A DNA stretch of 44,740 nt. Origin: Patescibacteria group bacterium (lineage in GTDB: Bacteria; Patescibacteriota; Minisyncoccia; Minisyncoccales; Staskawiczbacteraceae). A program made the position numbers and the translations under genes. The number at the start of each line of letters is the position of its first letter. Within the stretch, counting starts at the first letter, position 1. Positions 8,411 to 35,179 of this stretch are shown here, piece by piece. The DNA is taken from NCBI GenBank assembly GCA_018895235.1, contig JAHIOM010000015.1, positions 1 to 44,740 of the forward strand. The letters are read 5' to 3'. The notes under the pieces are model-generated. The model was not told where the DNA came from and made no database searches. It saw only the letters and a program-made list of their open reading frames with translations.

Positions 8411-8486
8411 TTATTTATCCTGTTAAATAGCCCGTCGGGCTAATCCCGCCTAGGCGGGATTATTTAACTGGATGAAAATTTTAATC
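8411..8486. repeat. Y-family three-way-junction element, copy Y1
   Basis: Outer stem ATCC(T)GTTAAAT / ATTTAAC(T)GGAT (8417-8428 and 8462-8473) encloses two hairpins: AGCCC-gtc-GGGCT and AATCCCGCC-ta-GGCGGGATT. The conserved block runs into rplM, supplying its last codons and stop. Near-identical to Y2 at 12101-12175. Confidence 0.88.
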
Positions 8487-12100: not shown

Positions 12101-12175
12101 TTATTTATCCTGTTAAATAGCCCTCGGGCTAATCCCGCCCAAGCGGGATTATTTAACTGGATGAAAATTTTAATC
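12101..12175. repeat. Y-family three-way-junction element, copy Y2
   Basis: Same organisation as Y1: outer stem at 12107-12118 and 12151-12162, hairpins AGCC-ctcg-GGCT and AATCCCGC-ccaa-GCGGGATT. The conserved block enters the 3' end of the upstream gene and encodes its LKFSSS-stop, exactly as Y1 does in rplM. Confidence 0.88.
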
Positions 12176-13508: not shown

Positions 13509-13646
13509 GCGAGGCATTAGTTCCAAAAGTAAATTTCGCAGGCAGAAAAGCACGGTTTTGCGAAGCAAATTTTCTGCCGAGAACTTAGGGCGCGTCCCGC
13601 CGCTGGGCGGGACGACGCGCGGTACTTTTGGGGCTAATGCCGAGCG
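13509..13646 (+). repeat. E-family structured element, long copy E1
   Basis: Plus-strand fold. Base GC-GA-GG / CC-GA-GC; outer stem 13513-13531 with 13623-13641, where the only non-Watson-Crick pairs are two U-G. Hairpin 1 has an 8-nt internal loop GCACGGTT (13550-13557). Hairpin 2 has a bulged A and a C(GCTG)G cap at 13601-13606. AAACC at 13487-13491 could pair with the GGTTT of the loop. It abuts the alaS stop codon. Confidence 0.85.
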
Positions 13647-15425
13647 TTACTCTAAAACTGCTTTTATTCTTCTAACACCTGCACTTGACGATTCTTCTTT
13701 TTGTATTTTGAAACACCCCAAAATTCCTGTTTTTTCAACATGAGGCCCTCCGCAAATTTCTCTGCTTAATATTTCATCGCCTTCGCTTATAATATAAACT
13801 TTAACGGCTTGGCCGTATTTTGAATCAAAAACACCCATGGCACCGATTTCTTTTGCCCTATATAGGGTCATTTCTTCATATTTGACCGACAAATCTTTTT
13901 TAATCGCCTCATTAACAAAGTCCTCCACTTTTTTAATTTGTTCGGGAGTCATTTTTTCTTTATAAGAAAAGTCAAATCTCAATCTTTCGGCTGTAATATT
14001 GCTGCCTTTCTGGATTACATCTTCGCCTAAAACCTTTCTTAACCCGGCCAGCATTAAATGGGCTGCGGTATGAAGTTTGGTTGTTTCAAGGCCCGCATCA
14101 GCCATCCCTCCCTTAAAGACGCCTGCCGTAGCGGTACGAGAAAGATTTTGGTGTTTTTCCAGTTCTTTTTTAAATCCATCTAGGTCAACTTCTAGATTTT
14201 TCTCCTTTGCCAATTCTTCGGTCATCTCTATCGGGAAACCGTAGGTCTGATAAAGATTGAAAGAATCCTGACCAGATATAACGCCAGAAGTTTGGATATT
14301 TTCAAATTCTTTTAATCCCCTCTCCAGTGTTTTATTAAACTTTTCTTCTTCTCTAACTAACTGCTCTTCAATAAAATCCTTGTTCTTTTTTAATTCGGGA
14401 TAAATATCTTTGTATATATCAATTACGGGCTCTACAATTTTAAAGGTAAAAACATTTTTAATTCCTATTTTCCTCCCGTGCCTTATGGCTCTACGAATCA
14501 ATCGCCTTAAAACATAACCTCGTTCAATATTAGATGGCTCTATATTTTCACTTAAAATAAAAGTGGCTGCTTTTAGGTGATCTGCAATTACTCTATAATT
14601 CAGGGGCTGGGATTGATATTTTATTTCAGCCAATTCCTCTATTTTTTTTATTATCGGCAGAAACAATTCTGTTTCATAAATATTATTGTGGCCATTTAAA
14701 ACCGCTGTTGTTCTTTCTACTCCCATTCCGGTATCTACGTTTTTTTGTTTTAGGGGCTCGTATTTTCCTTCTTTGGTTTTATTAAACTCCATAAAAACAT
14801 CATTCCAAATTTCCGCATATTTACCGCAACTGCATCCTGGCCGGCAGCTCAAATCGCATTTTTCTTTACCCGTATCATAAAATATTTCAGTGCAAGGACC
14901 GCAGGGACCGGTCTGGCCAGCTGGACCCCACCAGTTATCTTCTTTTGGCAAAAAATAAATTCTTTCGTCCGGAATTCCCAATTGTTGCCAAATCGCGGTT
15001 GATTCTTCGTCTTTTGGAGCGTCGCTATCGCCAGCGAAAATTGTTATGTTTAATTTTTCAATCGGGATATTTAGATATTTTCTCCCGGTTAAAAATTCAA
15101 AACTCCAGTTGATTGCTTCTTTTTTCCAATAATCACCTAAAGACCAATTACCCAACATCTCAAAAAAAGTTAAATGCCAAGAGTCGCCAACGCTGTCAAT
15201 GTCGCCGGTTCTAATACATTTTTGAACATCAGCTAACCTCTTCCCGCTAGGGTGCTTTTCTCCTATCAAAAAGGGTACTAACGGATGCATGCCGGCAGTG
15301 GTAAACAGAACCGTTGGGTCATTTACTGGAATTAAAGAAGCGCCGGGGATAATAACATGTCCGTTTGCTTTAAAAAAATCTAAAAACTTTTTCCTCAATC
15401 CAGAAGACTTCATTTTTAAGCTCAT
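13647..15425 (-). CDS. alaS: Alanyl-tRNA synthetase, short form ending after the editing domain
   Basis: Charges tRNA-Ala and edits mischarged products. The catalytic core (VNDPTVLFTTAGMHPLVPFL, GDIDSVGDSWHLTFFEMLGN) is followed by a Cys-rich CDLSCRPGCSCGKYAEIWND. The editing domain has zinc ligands His452, His456, Cys558 and His562 (HTAAH ... CGGPH). The protein ends at residue 592; typical enzymes are about 870 aa, so the DHHA1/C-Ala oligomerisation region is gone. Predicted mRNA start is 3 nt before the ATG at 15425; MKSSGLRKK (15413) is an alternative start. Element E1 lies at its 3' end. Confidence 0.96.
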   Translation of the reverse strand: MSLKMKSSGLRKKFLDFFKANGHVIIPGASLIPVNDPTVLFTTAGMHPLVPFLIGEKHPSGKRLADVQKCIRTGDIDSVGDSWHLTFFEMLGNWSLGDYWKKEAINWSFEFLTGRKYLNIPIEKLNITIFAGDSDAPKDEESTAIWQQLGIPDERIYFLPKEDNWWGPAGQTGPCGPCTEIFYDTGKEKCDLSCRPGCSCGKYAEIWNDVFMEFNKTKEGKYEPLKQKNVDTGMGVERTTAVLNGHNNIYETELFLPIIKKIEELAEIKYQSQPLNYRVIADHLKAATFILSENIEPSNIERGYVLRRLIRRAIRHGRKIGIKNVFTFKIVEPVIDIYKDIYPELKKNKDFIEEQLVREEEKFNKTLERGLKEFENIQTSGVISGQDSFNLYQTYGFPIEMTEELAKEKNLEVDLDGFKKELEKHQNLSRTATAGVFKGGMADAGLETTKLHTAAHLMLAGLRKVLGEDVIQKGSNITAERLRFDFSYKEKMTPEQIKKVEDFVNEAIKKDLSVKYEEMTLYRAKEIGAMGVFDSKYGQAVKVYIISEGDEILSREICGGPHVEKTGILGCFKIQKEESSSAGVRRIKAVLE

Positions 15426-16070: not shown

Positions 16071-16263
16071 GCGAGGGAATTGATTTTCGGAACCACTTAA
16101 TTTAATAAGCAAGGCAATAACTCTTGAAAGTAACTTTCGCAGGCAGTTGAGCATGGTTCCCGCCGCAGCGGGATCAACTGCCGAGAATGTAGATAGCCCT
16201 GAGGCGCTGGCCGAAGGGACTATCGGTACTTTCAGGAGTTGTTGCCGAACGCAGTTCCCGAGC
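16071..16263 (+). repeat. E-family structured element, long copy E2, nested in an outer GA-motif stem
   Basis: Inner element 16109-16250: outer stem GGCAATAACTCTTGAAAGTA with its partner, two U-G wobbles on the plus strand; hairpin 1 loop GCATGGTT at 16151-16158; hairpin 2 with bulged A and CGCTGG at 16205-16210. It lies inside a further stem, GC-GA-GGGAATTG (16071-16082) with CAGTTCCC-GA-GC (16252-16263), again with one U-G. The linker GGAACCA (16089-16095) is complementary to TGGTTCC (16154-16160). Ends 1 nt before the tpiA stop. Confidence 0.85.
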
Positions 16264-16264
16264 G

Positions 16265-17002
16265 CTATATTGATGATTTCACGATTTTTACAAACTCCTC
16301 TGTTTTAAGAGAAGCACCGCCAACTAAAAGGCCGCTAGCTCCCGCTTCTTTAATGTAGGAATTGGAATTTTCTCCTTTAACGCTGCCGCCATAAATAACT
16401 CTGGTCTTATCTGCAACCGCCCTGTTATAAAGGTTATTAAGCGTCTGTTTGATAAATAAAATAGAGGTCATTGTTTCATCAACCGAACAGTTGTTTCCCG
16501 TGCCAATAGCCCAAATCGGCTCATAAGCAATAGTAATGTTTTTTGTTTCCGCTTTAGAAATTCCCTCTAGTCCTTCCTTCAGTTGGTTTTTAATAATATT
16601 GGTTTTATTTCCCTCATCACGCTCCTGGCTGGTTTCGCCTACGCAAAAAATAACTTTTAACCCGGCTGATATAGCTCTTTTTATTTTTTTATTTATCTCT
16701 TCATTTGTTTCTTTAAAATATTTCCTCCTTTCTGAATGGCCGATGATAACATAATCAATTCCCATATTTTTCAGTATTAAAGCTGAAATTTCACCCGTAA
16801 AAGCCCCTTTTTCTTCAAAGTAGCAATTCTGAGCGCCCAGGGTTAAACCTTTTAATATAGACAAATAAACAAAAGGCGGACAGATTACAACTTCTGCGTT
16901 TTTTATATTTTTAACTCTTTTTTTAATCCCTTCAAAAAGAGTTTTGGCTTCTTTTTGACTTGTTGGGTTGCACTTCCAGTTAGCTGCAATTAATGGTTTC
17001 AT
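16265..17002 (-). CDS. tpiA: Triosephosphate isomerase
   Basis: Interconverts DHAP and glyceraldehyde-3-phosphate in glycolysis. AANWKCNP at residues 5-12 carries the catalytic Asn and Lys. IIGHSERRKYF holds the catalytic His. IAYEPIWAIGTG is the Glu signature with loop 6. YGGSVKGENS and GLLVGGASLK bind phosphate. 245 aa, usual length. Apparently a single-gene unit between map and the ykuK-like gene. Confidence 0.97.
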   Translation of the reverse strand: MKPLIAANWKCNPTSQKEAKTLFEGIKKRVKNIKNAEVVICPPFVYLSILKGLTLGAQNCYFEEKGAFTGEISALILKNMGIDYVIIGHSERRKYFKETNEEINKKIKRAISAGLKVIFCVGETSQERDEGNKTNIIKNQLKEGLEGISKAETKNITIAYEPIWAIGTGNNCSVDETMTSILFIKQTLNNLYNRAVADKTRVIYGGSVKGENSNSYIKEAGASGLLVGGASLKTEEFVKIVKSSI

Positions 17003-21937: not shown

Positions 21938-21974
21938 AAATAATTTTTAATTTTTTAACTTATAAAATATTAAA

Positions 21975-22000
21975 ACGAGGCAATAATTATTGCCGAGCGT
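21975..22000 (+). repeat. S-type short hairpin with GA-motif base, rpsH-rplF gap
   Basis: ACGAGGCAATAAT-TATTGCCGAGCGT: the minimal form of the E-family base (GA opposite GA, then GGCA/TGCC). It begins 2 nt after the rpsH stop on the minus strand. Confidence 0.7.
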
Positions 22001-22001
22001 C

Positions 22002-22391
22002 TTACCATACTTCGCAAATCACCTCTCCACCTAATCTTTCTTTTCTCGCTTTTTTATTTGTCATTAATCCTTTTGACGTTGAAATTATTGTTATTCCTCG
22101 GCCTCCCCTAACTGCCCTGATGTCGGATGTTTGGATATAAACCTTATTGCCCGGTTTGGATATTCTTTTTAAGGAGGATATGGCGGGAGCATCCTGATTA
22201 TATTTTAAAGCAATTTTCAATATTCTATCATCTTTTTTAGGGGTTTTCTTTATGTCGCCAAGAAATCCTTCTTCAACTAAAATCTTGGCAATTTCTTGCT
22301 TTAATCGCGAAAACGGTATGAAAACCTCTGTTTTCGCTACGGCCTGAGCATTCCTTATTTGATTTAACATATCTGTAATTGGATCTGACAT
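22002..22391 (-). CDS. rpsH: Ribosomal protein uS8
   Basis: 16S central-domain binder. SDPITDMLNQIRNAQAVAKT at the start, VYIQTSDIRAVRGGRGITII and STSKGLMTNKKARKERLGGE, VICEVW at the end. 129 aa. Four nt after rpsN. Confidence 0.97.
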   Translation of the reverse strand: MSDPITDMLNQIRNAQAVAKTEVFIPFSRLKQEIAKILVEEGFLGDIKKTPKKDDRILKIALKYNQDAPAISSLKRISKPGNKVYIQTSDIRAVRGGRGITIISTSKGLMTNKKARKERLGGEVICEVW

Positions 22392-23914: not shown

Positions 23915-23925
23915 GATGATTTTAT

Positions 23926-23995
23926 GAATGAAATGAATAATATCATCACCCCGCCCTCTAAGCGTTAATCTCTACTAATGCATAGAGGGCGGGGT
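23926..23995. repeat. H-family GC hairpin, copy Ha (rpsQ-rplN gap)
   Basis: ACCCCGCCCTCTA ... TAGAGGGCGGGGT at 23948-23995 with the inner helix GCGTTA/TAATGC (one G-U on the plus strand). On the minus strand it is followed by a conserved ATTATTCATTTCATTCAT stretch leading to the rplN ATG. Confidence 0.85.
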
Positions 23996-24249: not shown

Positions 24250-24259
24250 AATAGTTTGT

Positions 24260-24340
24260 GAGCGAAGCGAATAATATCATCCCCCTCTAATCGTTAACCT
24301 CTATTAATGCATATAGAGCTGGATAAGATCGCTGTTGCTC
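24260..24340. repeat. H-family hairpin, copy Hb (rpmC-rpsQ gap)
   Basis: Outer helices GAGC/GCTC and GCGA/TCGC enclose a degenerate H core (CCTCTAA ... TATAGAG) with TTAACCTCTATTAATGCA inside. The flank 'gcgagcaacagcga' recurs in copy Hd. Confidence 0.7.
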
Positions 24341-24963: not shown

Positions 24964-24968
24964 ATTAT

Positions 24969-25039
24969 GAATGAAATGAATAATATGCTCACCCCGCCCT
25001 CTGAGCTCTATGAAATTTATACAACATAGAGGGCGGGGT
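24969..25039. repeat. H-family GC hairpin, copy Hc (rpsC-rplP gap)
   Basis: ACCCCGCCCTCT ... AGAGGGCGGGGT at 24991-25039 with a different loop from Ha and Hd. The 3' flank on the minus strand again contains ATTATTCATTTCATTCATAA before rplP. Confidence 0.82.
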
Positions 25040-28939: not shown

Positions 28940-29071
28940 GCGAGGGAATATAGTTTTCAGTGTAATGCGGAGCGATTTTGATTGGTTCGCCAAAGGCGAA
29001 AAATCGCGAGTAGATTAGCGAGTTTTTTCGCTGGAAAAAAACTCGCGGCAATGAAAACTATGTTCCCGAGC
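28940..29071 (+). repeat. E-family structured element, long copy E3
   Basis: Outer stem GGGAATATAGTTTTCA (28944-28959) with TGAAAACTATGTTCCC (29052-29067), one U-G on the plus strand, and GC-GA base. Hairpin 1 loop GATTGGTT at 28980-28987 above CGCC/GGCG. Hairpin 2 cap CGCTGG at 29029-29034. GAACCA in the 5' linker (28917-28922) is complementary to the loop. A partial second left end, GCGAGGCAATAAAG, lies just upstream at 28897. The right end includes the rplC stop. Confidence 0.82.
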
Positions 29072-29660: not shown

Positions 29661-29668
29661 GGTAATTA

Positions 29669-29757
29669 TGAACGAAGTGAATAATATAATGACCCCGCCC
29701 TCTAAGCGTTAATCTCTACTAATGCATAGAGGGCGGGGTAAGCTCGCTGTTGCTCGC
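29669..29757. repeat. H-family GC hairpin, copy Hd (rpsJ-rplC gap)
   Basis: ACCCCGCCCTCTA ... TAGAGGGCGGGGT (29692-29739) with GCGTTA/TAATGC inside, core identical to Ha. Flanks gaacgaagtga / tcgctgttgctc can pair as an outer helix with wobbles on the plus strand. Confidence 0.85.
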
Positions 29758-29944: not shown

Positions 29945-30331
29945 CTAAATCTTCACGGTAATGTCAACGCCTGCCGGCAGATTTATATCTCGTAATGCTT
30001 CAAGAATATCGGAGTTGGGATTTAAGATATCAATTATCCTTTTATGGACTCTCATTTCAAACTGTTCTCTTGCGTCTTTATGGATAAAGCTTGACCTATT
30101 AACGGTAAATTTTAATATCTCTGTCGGCAATGGGATAGGACCCACTACCTCGGCACCATAACGTGTAGCAATATCAATAATCTGCCGAGAGCTGTTATCA
30201 ATAATCTTGTGATCGTAGGCTCGCAGCTTAATCCGAAGCTGAGGTTTTACCTGTTCAGCAACCTTTTCTTCTATTTTCTTCTTTTTATCAGTGGATATAA
30301 CTTTTTTCTTTACAGTTTTCTTTACTGGCAT
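29945..30331 (-). CDS. rpsJ: Ribosomal protein uS10 with N-terminal extension
   Basis: 30S head protein, also the antitermination factor NusE. The core LRIKLRAYDHKIIDNSSRQI, VVGPIPLPTEILKFTVNRSS and FEMRVHKRIIDILNPN is canonical. About 27 extra Lys-rich residues precede it (PVKKTVKKKVISTDKKKKIE). 128 aa instead of about 103. First gene of the S10 block, after tuf. Confidence 0.96.
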   Translation of the reverse strand: MPVKKTVKKKVISTDKKKKIEEKVAEQVKPQLRIKLRAYDHKIIDNSSRQIIDIATRYGAEVVGPIPLPTEILKFTVNRSSFIHKDAREQFEMRVHKRIIDILNPNSDILEALRDINLPAGVDITVKI

Positions 30332-30343
30332 TTGATAATGTTA

Positions 30344-30465
30344 TGAACGAAGTGAATAATATTATCACCCTGCCCTCTATGCTGTCGGAAAATTATTTTT
30401 GCATATTCTTTGGAAATTACCCATTAATCTCTTTTGTGAAATTCCAACGGCTTAGAGGGCTGGGT
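30344..30465. repeat. H-family hairpin with enlarged loop, copy He (tuf-rpsJ gap)
   Basis: ACCCTGCCCTCTA ... TAGAGGGCTGGGT at 30367-30465 keeps the H stem with a compensatory C-to-T/G change, but the loop is about 70 nt. It has the same gaacgaagtgaataatatt flank before rpsJ. Confidence 0.78.
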
Positions 30466-31716: not shown

Positions 31717-31760
31717 GCGAGGAAAAAGTGGAAAAACTTGTTTTTACACTTTAACCGAGC
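31717..31760 (+). repeat. S-type short hairpin in the tuf leader
   Basis: GC-GA-GG ... CC-GA-GC enclosing AAGTGGAAAAAC-tt-GTTTTTACACTT. The GA base is identical to the long E copies. Confidence 0.72.
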
Positions 31761-31766
31761 GCCGCA

Positions 31767-31846: not shown

Positions 31847-31875
31847 GAGGAAAAGTTGAACCACGTAATAATCAA

Positions 31876-32011
31876 GCAAGGCATTAGTCCTAAAAGTAAA
31901 TCTCGCAGGCGATTTTGCATGGTTCGCCTTCGGCGAAAAATCGCCGAGAGCTTAAGACGCGAAACCACGCTGGGGTTTCGACGTGTGGTACTTTTGGGAC
32001 TAATGCCGAGC
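31876..32011 (+). repeat. E-family structured element, long copy E4 (clearest copy)
   Basis: Outer stem GGCATTAGTCCTAAAAGTA with TACTTTTGGGACTAATGCC, one U-G on the plus strand. Hairpin 1: CTC/GAG, bulged GCA, GGCGATTTT/AAAATCGCC, loop GCATGGTT opposite a single A, then CGCC-ttc-GGCG. Hairpin 2: CGAAACC/GGTTTCG with bulged A and CGCTGG at 31968-31973. Linker GAACCA (31858-31863) complements TGGTTC (31920-31925). Downstream of fusA. Confidence 0.88.
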
Positions 32012-32025
32012 GCAATTCCCGAACG

Positions 32026-34101
32026 CTATTTCCTCTTTCCCTCCATAATCTCCCTTGCTATATTCTCTGGCACTTTTCCATAATGGTCAAATTCCATAGT
32101 AAATGTTGCTCGGCCTTCAGTTAAAGAGCGGAGGCCGGTTGCATAGCCGAACATTTCAGCCAAAGGTACCTGGGAATCAATCACTTTCATACCCACTCTT
32201 TCTTTTGTCTCTAATATTTTACCCCGCCTTGAATTCAAATCAGATATTACCTGGCCGAAGAAATCTTCCGGGCTCACAATCTCTGTTTTCATAATAGGTT
32301 CCAATAAAACTGTCTTTGCCCTTTTGACAGCGGATTGAAAAGCCATAGAGCCGGCAATCTTAAAAGCAAATTCTGAAGAATCAACTTCGTGAAAACTTCC
32401 ATCGTACAAAGTAACCTTAACATCTACAAAAGGATAACCGGCCAACACGCCTTTATCTGCCGCCTCTTTTATGCCTTTTTGGACTGCTGGAATGAATTCT
32501 TTAGGAATAATTCCTCCTTTTATCTCGTCAACAAATTCAAAACCAGTCCCCCTTTCCTTCGGTTCAACCCTAAGCCAAACATGGCCATATTGCCCCTTGC
32601 CTCCCGACTGTCTCACATATTTTCCTTCTGCTTCGGCTTCGCCTAAAATGGTTTCTTTATAAGCAACTTGGGGTCTGCCGTAATTGGCGTCTACTTTGAA
32701 TTCCCTTCTAAGCCTGTCGGCAATAATATCTAGGTGCAACTCCCCCATCCCGGATATAATTGTTTCTCCTGTTTCCTGGTCTTCTTTTATTCTGAATGTC
32801 GGATCTTCATCAGATAATTTTCTCAAAGAAACAATCAATTTTTCCTGGTCTGCTGTTGTTTTTGGTTCAACCCTAATCCCAATTACTGGTTCTGGGAACA
32901 CAATCTTTTCTAAAACTATGGGATTGTCCTTGTCACAAAGAGTATTGCCTGTGCCTGTATTTTTCAGGCCGACAGTTGCTCCTATTTCCCCAGTATATAA
33001 TACATCTAATTCCTGGCGCGAATTCGCATGCATTCTTAAAATTCTGCTGATTCTCTCCTGCTCGCCGGTAGTTGAGTTTAAAACATAAGATCCTTTGTTT
33101 AAAACGCCGGAGTAAATTCTAAAATAAGTTAGAGTTCCTACATAAGGATCGGAGGCAACTTTAAAAACCAAAGCTGAAAACGGTTCTTTATCATCCGGTT
33201 TTCTGGTAATTGCTTTGCCGGTTTTCATATCTGTCCCATCAACCGGAGGCAAATCTACGGGTGAAGGCAAATAATCAACAATCGCGTCAAGAACCGGCTG
33301 CACCCCTTTATTTTTTAAAGCTGAACCGCAAAAAACCGGCACCAGCTTATATTCAAGGCAGCCTTTTCTTAGTGCGTTTTTTAATTCCTGAACAGTAATT
33401 TCCTTTTTTTCTAAAAACTTTTCTACCAGTATATGGTCTTCGCCAGCTATTTTTTCTACTAATTTTTGGCGATAAGTTTCCGCTTTTTCTTTAAATTCTG
33501 CCGGAATGTCTTTTAAAACAACTTTCTCGCCCTTATCTCCCTCAAAATAAACTGCCTTCATTTCGAATAAATCAATAACGCCCTGAAATTTGTCTTCTTC
33601 CCCCATTGATAATTGAACCGGCACAGCATAGGGGGTAAGTTTGTCATAAATTGATTGAAGGCTATTTTCAAAAGAGGCTCCCATTCTATCCAGTTTATTT
33701 ATAAAACAAACCCTGGGAATTTTGTAACGATCCGCCTGCCGCCAGACGGTTTCTGATTGGGGTTCTACTCCGGCAACACCGTCGAAAACAACAACCGCTC
33801 CGTCTAAAACCCTTAAAGATCTTTGAACTTCGGCGGTGAAATCAATGTGGCCGGGCGTATCAATAAGATTTATTTGATGATCTCTCCAGAAAAGGGTTGT
33901 CGCAGCCGAGGTAATGGTTATACCTCTTTCTTTTTCCTGGTCCATCCAATCCATTACTGCCTCTCCTTCATGAACCTCACCTATTTTGTGGGAAATTCCT
34001 GTATAAAAAAGCAGCCGCTCGCTTACAGTGGTTTTGCCTGCATCAATATGGGCAATAATGCCTATATTTCTAAGTTTTTCAACAAGATAAGGTCTGGTCA
34101 T
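32026..34101 (-). CDS. fusA: Elongation factor G
   Basis: Translocase GTPase that also works with RRF in recycling. G1 AHIDAGKT at 17-24, G3 DTPGHIDF, G4 NKLD, then domains II-V with [20 protein letters not shown] and [16 protein letters not shown] at the end. 691 aa, normal. Twelve nt after rpsG, in the standard str order. Element E4 lies just past its stop. Confidence 0.98.
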
Positions 34102-34624: not shown

Positions 34625-34760
34625 GTGAGGCAACATATCTTTCGTTGTAATTCGGAACGAATTTGCTTGGTTTCTGCTCGAGGCGGAAAAATTCGCGAGT
34701 ACATTAGCGAGTTTTATCGCTGGAGGAAAACTCGCGGCAACGAAAGATATGTTGCCGAGC
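34625..34760 (+). repeat. E-family structured element, long copy E5
   Basis: Outer stem GGCAACATATCTTTCGTTG with its perfect complement (34629-34647, 34738-34756), base GT-GA / GA-GC. Hairpin 1 loop GCTTGGTT at 34665-34672 over TCTGC/GCGGA (one U-G on the plus strand). Hairpin 2 GAGTTTT ... AAAACTC with CGCTGG at 34718-34723. It shares CGAGTA-n-ATTAG between hairpins with E3. No linker complementary to the loop is seen. Two nt after the rpsL stop. Confidence 0.84.
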
Positions 34761-34762
34761 AA

Positions 34763-35179
34763 TTACTTTTTCTCTTTCTTTGTGCCGTATTTGCTTCTTC
34801 CTCTTTTTCTTCCCTCTACGCCGCCTGTATCTAAAACCCCCCTTACAATGTGATATCTTACGCCGGGCAAATCTTTAACTCTGCCGCCGCGGATTAAAAC
34901 TACGGAGTGTTCTTGCAAATTATGTCCTTCACCGGGGATATAAGCGGTTACTTCCATGCCGTTGGAAAGTTTAACTCTGGCGACTTTTCTTAAAGCAGAA
35001 TTCGGCTTTTTAGGAGTAGTGGTAAAAACCTTAACGCAAACTCCTCTTTTAAATGGCGCAGGATAGTAGGTCGGCCGGTTTTTTAAAACATTGAAACCAA
35101 ACTCAAGCGCCGGCATCTTTGTGCGCTTTTTTGATTTCTTTCTTGGTTTTTTAATAAGTTGATGGATAGTCGGACACAT
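34763..35179 (-). CDS. rpsL: Ribosomal protein uS12
   Basis: Decoding-centre protein. [60 protein letters not shown] and [20 protein letters not shown]. Both Lys residues linked to streptomycin response (in KKPNSA and RVKDLPG) are wild-type. 138 aa. First gene of the str operon, with a promoter at 35208-35236. Confidence 0.98.

Follow-up and report, generated by a model that had tools for sequence, protein, structure and literature searches.

The element described here, E, is a large undescribed family of DNA repeats of about 140 bases, dispersed through the genomes of Patescibacteria: a real, widespread and unusually well conserved structure, and not a single-locus RNA gene. In our judgement it is probably a non-autonomous repeat of the mobile type, whose folded strand, most likely as single-stranded DNA (ssDNA), would be read by a trans-acting enzyme. 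Its structure recurs across the phylum, with exceptionally clear covariation and loops that hardly vary, and no Rfam model matches it. It sits at the 3' ends of core operons of the Patescibacteria, a genome-reduced and genetically poorly known group, and so bears on evolution and regulation in these bacteria. The literature search retrieved no paper joining REPs with Patescibacteria and no description of the family.

The window, i.e. the whole stretch of 44,740 nucleotides under analysis, is contig C12 of an 837-kb genome of Patescibacteria type in 40 contigs (the own genome, G000). An earlier sequence-only reading had claimed five copies in it; all were confirmed at their coordinates, on the + strand, and the genes of the window are nearly all on the - strand. 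E1 (13509–13646, 146.8 bits) lies immediately past the stop codon of the alanyl-tRNA synthetase (AlaRS) gene (13647–15425, -), and E2 (16109–16250, 132.4 bits) past that of the triosephosphate isomerase (TIM) gene (16265–17002, -). E3 (28940–29071, 113.1 bits) reaches into the 3' end of the ribosomal protein L3 gene, so that the L3 stop codon (29058–29060) falls within the element. E4 (31876–32011, 146.1 bits) follows the stop codon of the EF-G gene (32026–34101, -) and E5 (34625–34760, 113.2 bits) that of the ribosomal protein S12 gene (34763–35179, -). The copies had been placed 'between translation genes': this description fits AlaRS, L3, EF-G and S12 and fails for E2, which follows triosephosphate isomerase.

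E folds into a three-way junction made of a long outer stem (15–20 bp in E1–E5) and two hairpins, with conserved termini (AAGCGAGG/CCGAGCG). The base of the outer stem carries a GA-rich internal loop in E1–E5; the GA/GA mismatch proposed for it was found in E1, E3 and E5, and E2 and E4 have AA/GA instead. In E4 (+ strand throughout), the 5' side of this terminal internal loop is AA at 31878–31879, where most copies have GA, opposite GA at 32008–32009, and the outer stem pairs 31880–31898 with 31989–32007. Hairpin 1 (31902–31950) has at its base a GNA/GA internal loop, formed by GCA at 31905–31907 and GA at 31946–31947, with a family-wide conservation of 93% (G), 90% (A), 85% (G) and 82% (A). 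Higher up lies the most conserved part of the family, an asymmetric 8-nt loop which in E4 is GCATGGTT (31917–31924), opposite A31936. In the order E1–E5 the loops are GCACGGTT, GCATGGTT, GATTGGTT, GCATGGTT and GCTTGGTT, so that the G(C/A)N(T/C)GGTT loop facing a single A is present in all five, as had been claimed. Hairpin 2 (31957–31984 in E4) ends in a GCTG cap (31969–31972) and has a bulged A (A31981); here too the reading was exact, with a C(GCTG)G cap in 5/5 copies and the bulged A in E1, E2 and E4. In an alignment of 103 copies from related genomes, the hairpin 1 loop (GCATGGT) is conserved at G97, C96, A77, T80, G97, G99 and T97%, and the hairpin 2 cap at G99, C98, T91 and G100%. The bulged A is found in 98% of the copies with a letter at that column, and one A of the junction is invariant (103/103). 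The unpaired columns are the best conserved; in the paired ones the commonest letter averages 61%.

The stems covary extensively. Two-sided changes were found at all 50 modelled pairs of the 103-copy alignment, which leans to the structure of the covariance model: paired cells amounted to 93.8%, versus 60.4% after shuffling and 32–48% when the partners were slid, and two-sided changes to 1649 versus 470. The covariation score, 0.796 against 0.06–0.114 with slid partners, exceeds the largest control value, so that the covariation beyond chance on which the sequence-only reading had staked its claim was indeed observed. In a MAFFT alignment of E1–E5 alone, which does not lean to the model, 33 of the 49 predicted pairs already showed two-sided changes. 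When the hairpin 1 pattern was scanned for by itself, every genuine match fell in a full element, and there was one chance match, in a Spirochaetaceae locus. A chance origin of the fold is excluded, and the notion of a single, complex fold that is conserved, its unpaired bases fixed and its stems covarying, is upheld by the 103-copy statistics.

Nesting is frequent, E2 and E4 each lying within a second stem with the same termini. The stem enclosing E2 (16071–16263, +; GCGAGGGAATTG ... CAGTTCCCGAGCG) has the termini of E and its right end adjoins a TAG stop. The one enclosing E4 is probable (about 31847–32025, +; GAGGAAAAGTTG ... CAATTCCCGAACG): its right end adjoins the EF-G stop and the flanks of E4 share a 9-nt inverted match. 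This further stem around E2 and E4 explains the wider interval, 31858–32024, first given for E4. Short palindromes with the termini of E but no inner hairpins also adjoin stop codons: a minimal relative of this kind (21971–22001, +; CGAGGCAATAATTATTGCCGAGCGTC) lies directly past the stop of the gene at 22002–22391 (-). A short hairpin with the termini GCGAGG ... CCGAGCG, as in E, is found upstream of EF-Tu (31717–31761, +). This gives E the look of a module within a larger system of palindromes. At the EF-G and S12 stops of the relatives there are other palindromes, several with CGCTCGG...CCTCGCT termini and different interiors. The window also holds a second repeat family (23922–23995, 24251–24324, 24965–25038, 29666–29739 and 30330–30396), which consists of TTATGAAYGAARTGAATAATAT, whose reverse complement immediately precedes start codons, and, after it, strong CCCCGCCCTCTA...TAGAGGGCGGGG hairpins. 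Two 55-nt hairpin repeats (8432–8486 and 12121–12175; GGGCTAATCCCGCC...GGCGGGATTATTTAACTGGATGA), 95% identical, each lie directly past a stop codon.

A covariance model built from seven copies detected nine in the own genome and, among 58 related genomes, the 103 copies mentioned above, distributed patchily over 29 of them (0–11 per genome); many further copies in CPR genomes had been named as something that would support novelty. E was found in at least 32 of 380 genomes in a phylum-wide scan, a lower bound since few candidates were scored per genome. Model-confirmed matches of a GTDB pattern scan came only from records named as Patescibacteria (Staskawicz-, Nealson-, Wildermuth-, Parcubacteria and others) and from one titled only 'bacterium'. 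None of the scan matches outside the phylum was confirmed by the model, nor was any of 32 pattern matches in viral contigs. Rfam, searched at the gathering threshold with the window and ten loci, gave no match at any element; nor did relaxed searches with E up to 10 on E4 and up to 5 on one Unc1 copy (see below). That no described RNA class had been recognized in E is in line with these searches.

The placement of E relative to genes follows a simple pattern. For 93 of 101 copies the neighbouring gene on the 3' side runs on the opposite strand, with the stop codon at a median distance of 6 nt, so that the folded strand is the template strand of the adjoining genes. These are conserved core genes, typically highly expressed, and the same ones recur across different families: L3 five times, and S7, S8, S9, EF-G, GroES, enolase and PGK three times each. 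TAG stops are enriched among them (41/94 versus 80/424). The nearest neighbour of a copy belongs to the same genome in 53 of 93 cases, versus 5 with shuffled labels, and copies that share a host gene but not a genome are no more similar than an average pair. Since copies cluster by genome and not by host gene, similar sites must have been occupied repeatedly and independently. The stop adjacency is weak evidence of targeting, because other hairpins of this compact genome also start right behind stops.

Such a position calls to mind what was proposed for some REPs, namely that the reverse complement of E acts in the 3'-UTR of mRNAs, protecting or terminating the transcripts of highly expressed genes. 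The short distance to the stop, the recurrence of the core genes and the excess of TAG stops all speak for it. However, of the two strands E is the better folder, by RNA energies in 95/103 copies and by DNA energies in 94/103, which leaves the mRNA-sense strand as the worse one in 95 of 103 copies. E1–E5 have no following U tract, and in the genome G370 most copies are not adjacent to a stop and their orientation ignores the genes. With the stop adjacency shared by other hairpins of the window, and possibly reflecting nothing else than compact gene ends, we hold a role in the 3'-UTR to be decidedly unlikely.

The E strand itself could also be transcribed, into a cis-acting or small non-coding RNA spread by duplication, the loops of which would bind a protein or a ligand. 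Covariation and near-invariant unpaired bases are of riboswitch- or ribozyme-like quality, and G.T pairs outnumber A.C ones on the E strand (177 versus 81). Against this, the E strand runs antisense to the upstream gene in 93 of 101 copies and would need its own head-on promoter, and the left flanks show no obvious conserved one. The copies are specific to their genome, with no link to orthologous genes, and they lack an Rfam match. The loops are of a DNA type: the top of hairpin 1 is a 3-nt loop in 65 of 103 copies, with C(GNA)G in 46 versus C(TNC)G in 9, and GCGAAGC, an extra-stable DNA mini-hairpin, occurs in 13 copies versus 4 for its complement GCTTCGC. An RNA would prefer UUCG or GNRA tetraloops. 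Unlike GCGAAGC, the CCGAAGG sequence (18 copies) can be read either way, since its complement is a UUCG loop. Moreover, the share of G-U is low, 3.6% of cells in E versus 6.6% in the tRNA stems of the same DNA. Altogether a functional RNA seems unlikely. A plain functional RNA between translation genes does not agree with an element that is dispersed, grouped by genome, antisense to the flanking genes and, in Unc1, bordered by target duplications. 'A functional RNA or a structured single-stranded DNA' had been the initial alternative, and its second half fares better: loop types and non-Watson-Crick pairs, judged from the letters of the copies, suggest that E acts as ssDNA on the E strand. The DNA-type loops make E a test case for telling ssDNA from RNA structure by sequence alone.

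Direct traces of transposition were found in one subfamily. The Nealsonbacteria genome Unc1 has six E copies, each in the middle of a 233-bp unit with inverted ends (GGGTAAAGT/ACTTTACCC); the units are 97–100% identical. They are flanked by a 7-bp target duplication of AT-rich sequence, perfect in five cases and 6/7 in the sixth, and never 7/7 in 30 cross pairs. These hallmarks of MITEs (terminal inverted repeats and target duplication) were not seen at the other 103 copies, whose flanks had direct or inverted repeats no more often than expected by chance. A clear match to a transposon family would have refuted the sequence-only reading, and this came about in part: there is a transposon footprint around E in this one genome, but no known family matches. 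The Unc1-type left end gave seven matches, none seen with a transposase; the seventh lies at a contig edge (G432:C14:33-56), and these ends turned up on no autonomous transposon. In Unc1, an ordinary miniature transposon may be carrying E along as a passenger. To extend this to the whole family, as a passenger of DDE-type miniature transposons with neither mobility nor function of its own, is very improbable: the Unc1 units, with E in their middle, are what such a passenger would look like, but no such ends surround the other 103 copies and a passenger would not preserve its fold and loops across a phylum. That old, diverged copies still pair almost perfectly points to selection on each of them, more than inert mobile debris would show, and this counts against the mobile reading of E. 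In other genomes, G370 contains a young E family with conserved flanks, E3 is an insertion into a gene end, and the EF-G site of G010 is without E, a tuf promoter-like sequence (read by eye) beginning 3 nt past the EF-G stop. Two candidates were discarded: a coding region within the G370 units, where the short open frames belong to the repeat and form no gene, and an autonomous form made of half-elements flanking a gene, since the genuine hairpin 1 matches are all in full elements.

G370 also separates gene direction from replication strand. It is a single contig of 998 kb, 960 kb of which were read (G370:C1:1-960000), and its GC skew is negative (about -0.1 to -0.4) over all 960 kb, with no reversal, as if replication were one-directional. 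This single-skew pattern was reported earlier in some Microgenomates, and replication direction is uncertain in such genomes (PMC7143001). All 15 E matches of G370 are on the C-rich strand, with the right-hand gene on the + strand in 10 cases and on the - strand in 5; E and the rRNA genes are on opposite strands. Elsewhere, 95 of 103 copies have a C-rich E strand, but gene direction and skew coincide in those genomes; the Unc1 copies depart from the orientation rule. As a rule, the C-rich strand is the leading-strand template, the G-rich strand being the leading one; the E strand is probably, then, the leading-strand template. IS200/IS605 elements use the lagging-strand template (PMC6006769), which would make the E strand the opposite one. 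A possible simple reason for the orientation is that copies with their better-folding strand on the exposed lagging-strand template were lost.

These observations are consistent with the reading given at the outset, that of a mobile-type repeat read in trans. The E strand would fold into the three-way junction, and fold and fixed unpaired bases would together form the recognition site, leaving the stem sequences free to change. The folded strand, most likely as ssDNA, would be read by a putative enzyme supplied in trans, and new copies would spread within the genome. Most of those kept would stand a few bases behind the stops of conserved genes, as a rule strongly expressed ones, and have their E strand on the C-rich strand. 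The invariant loops provide a concrete bait for the enzyme.

One weakly supported candidate for this enzyme is an ssDNA transposase of the Y1/HUH type. Y1_Tnp and E are both present in 24 genomes, E only in 5 (no Y1_Tnp match), Y1 only in 10 and neither in 19 (Fisher p = 4e-4, ignoring phylogeny), an association that may reflect mobile-element load only. As a linked mobiliser Y1_Tnp was rejected: it is associated by presence, but Y1 genes have other ends. In the flanks that were read, Y1 genes have short palindromes of their own, none of the Y1 loci tested is flanked by E (one Y1 gene of G009 has an E about 1.1 kb away), and no transposase or recombinase gene with E at its ends was found. The single Y1_Tnp of the own genome, an IS200-like TnpA (contig C11, L006:1456-1905), lies between its own G+C-rich hairpins and not E. 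RAYT-like Y1 genes of the relatives have short gene-specific flanking palindromes, several with a GACGTC core, of the terminal-repeat and not the REP type.

Several known systems share traits with E. The REP/REPIN (BIME) sequences and their RAYT (TnpA-REP) resemble it in behaviour: they too are dispersed, mostly downstream of genes, grouped by genome and recognized as a folded single strand, and hairpin 2 of E follows a short conserved tag (NNAG). REPs, however, are 20–40 bp long with a GTAG/GTGG (or CGTC) tag, and E has about 140 nt, three helices and Y1 genes that it does not flank. The 4 nt before hairpin 2 are TGAG in 36 copies, GCAG in 24, TTAG in 11, GTAG in 8 and GGAG in 6 (n = 103). 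A canonical REP of the GTAG superfamily was rejected on the rarity of GTAG (8/103), the AAGCGAGG/CCGAGCG ends and the lack of an E-flanked RAYT among the Y1 loci tested. IS200/IS605 and their non-autonomous derivatives also have structured ends read as ssDNA, a replication-tied orientation and usually no target duplication; unlike them, E folds as one closed unit and probably lies on the opposite strand, and no tnpA shares its ends. YPAL/RU-2 (Yersinia palindromic sequences), ERIC, Correia/NEMIS, RPE and RUP are likewise imperfect palindromes of 100–170 nt with long stem loops, some near or inside genes and with empty sites, but they are sequence-conserved and clade-restricted, whereas E keeps fold and loops phylum-wide with free stems.

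A similar geometry is that of integron attC sites, tens to about 140 nt long, in which a folded template strand carries fixed unpaired bases. Like them, E lies past a stop codon, with the template strand folded, free stems and fixed extrahelical bases. That it is an attC-like site, its folded bottom strand being read by a tyrosine recombinase, is nevertheless extremely improbable: its ends are AAGCGAGG/CCGAGCG and not the core sites RYYYAAC/GTTRRRY, and its hosts are housekeeping genes in conserved operons, with no cassettes or cassette arrays. Tentatively, E could belong to a new class of mobile or recombination elements, distinct from REP, MITE and attC, in which a folded, replication-oriented strand would be read by a dedicated Patescibacteria enzyme through the invariant unpaired bases, and the palindromes with shared termini would be members of one modular system. 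Falling under neither definition, E appears by analogy to resemble REPs and attC sites in its possible mode of working.
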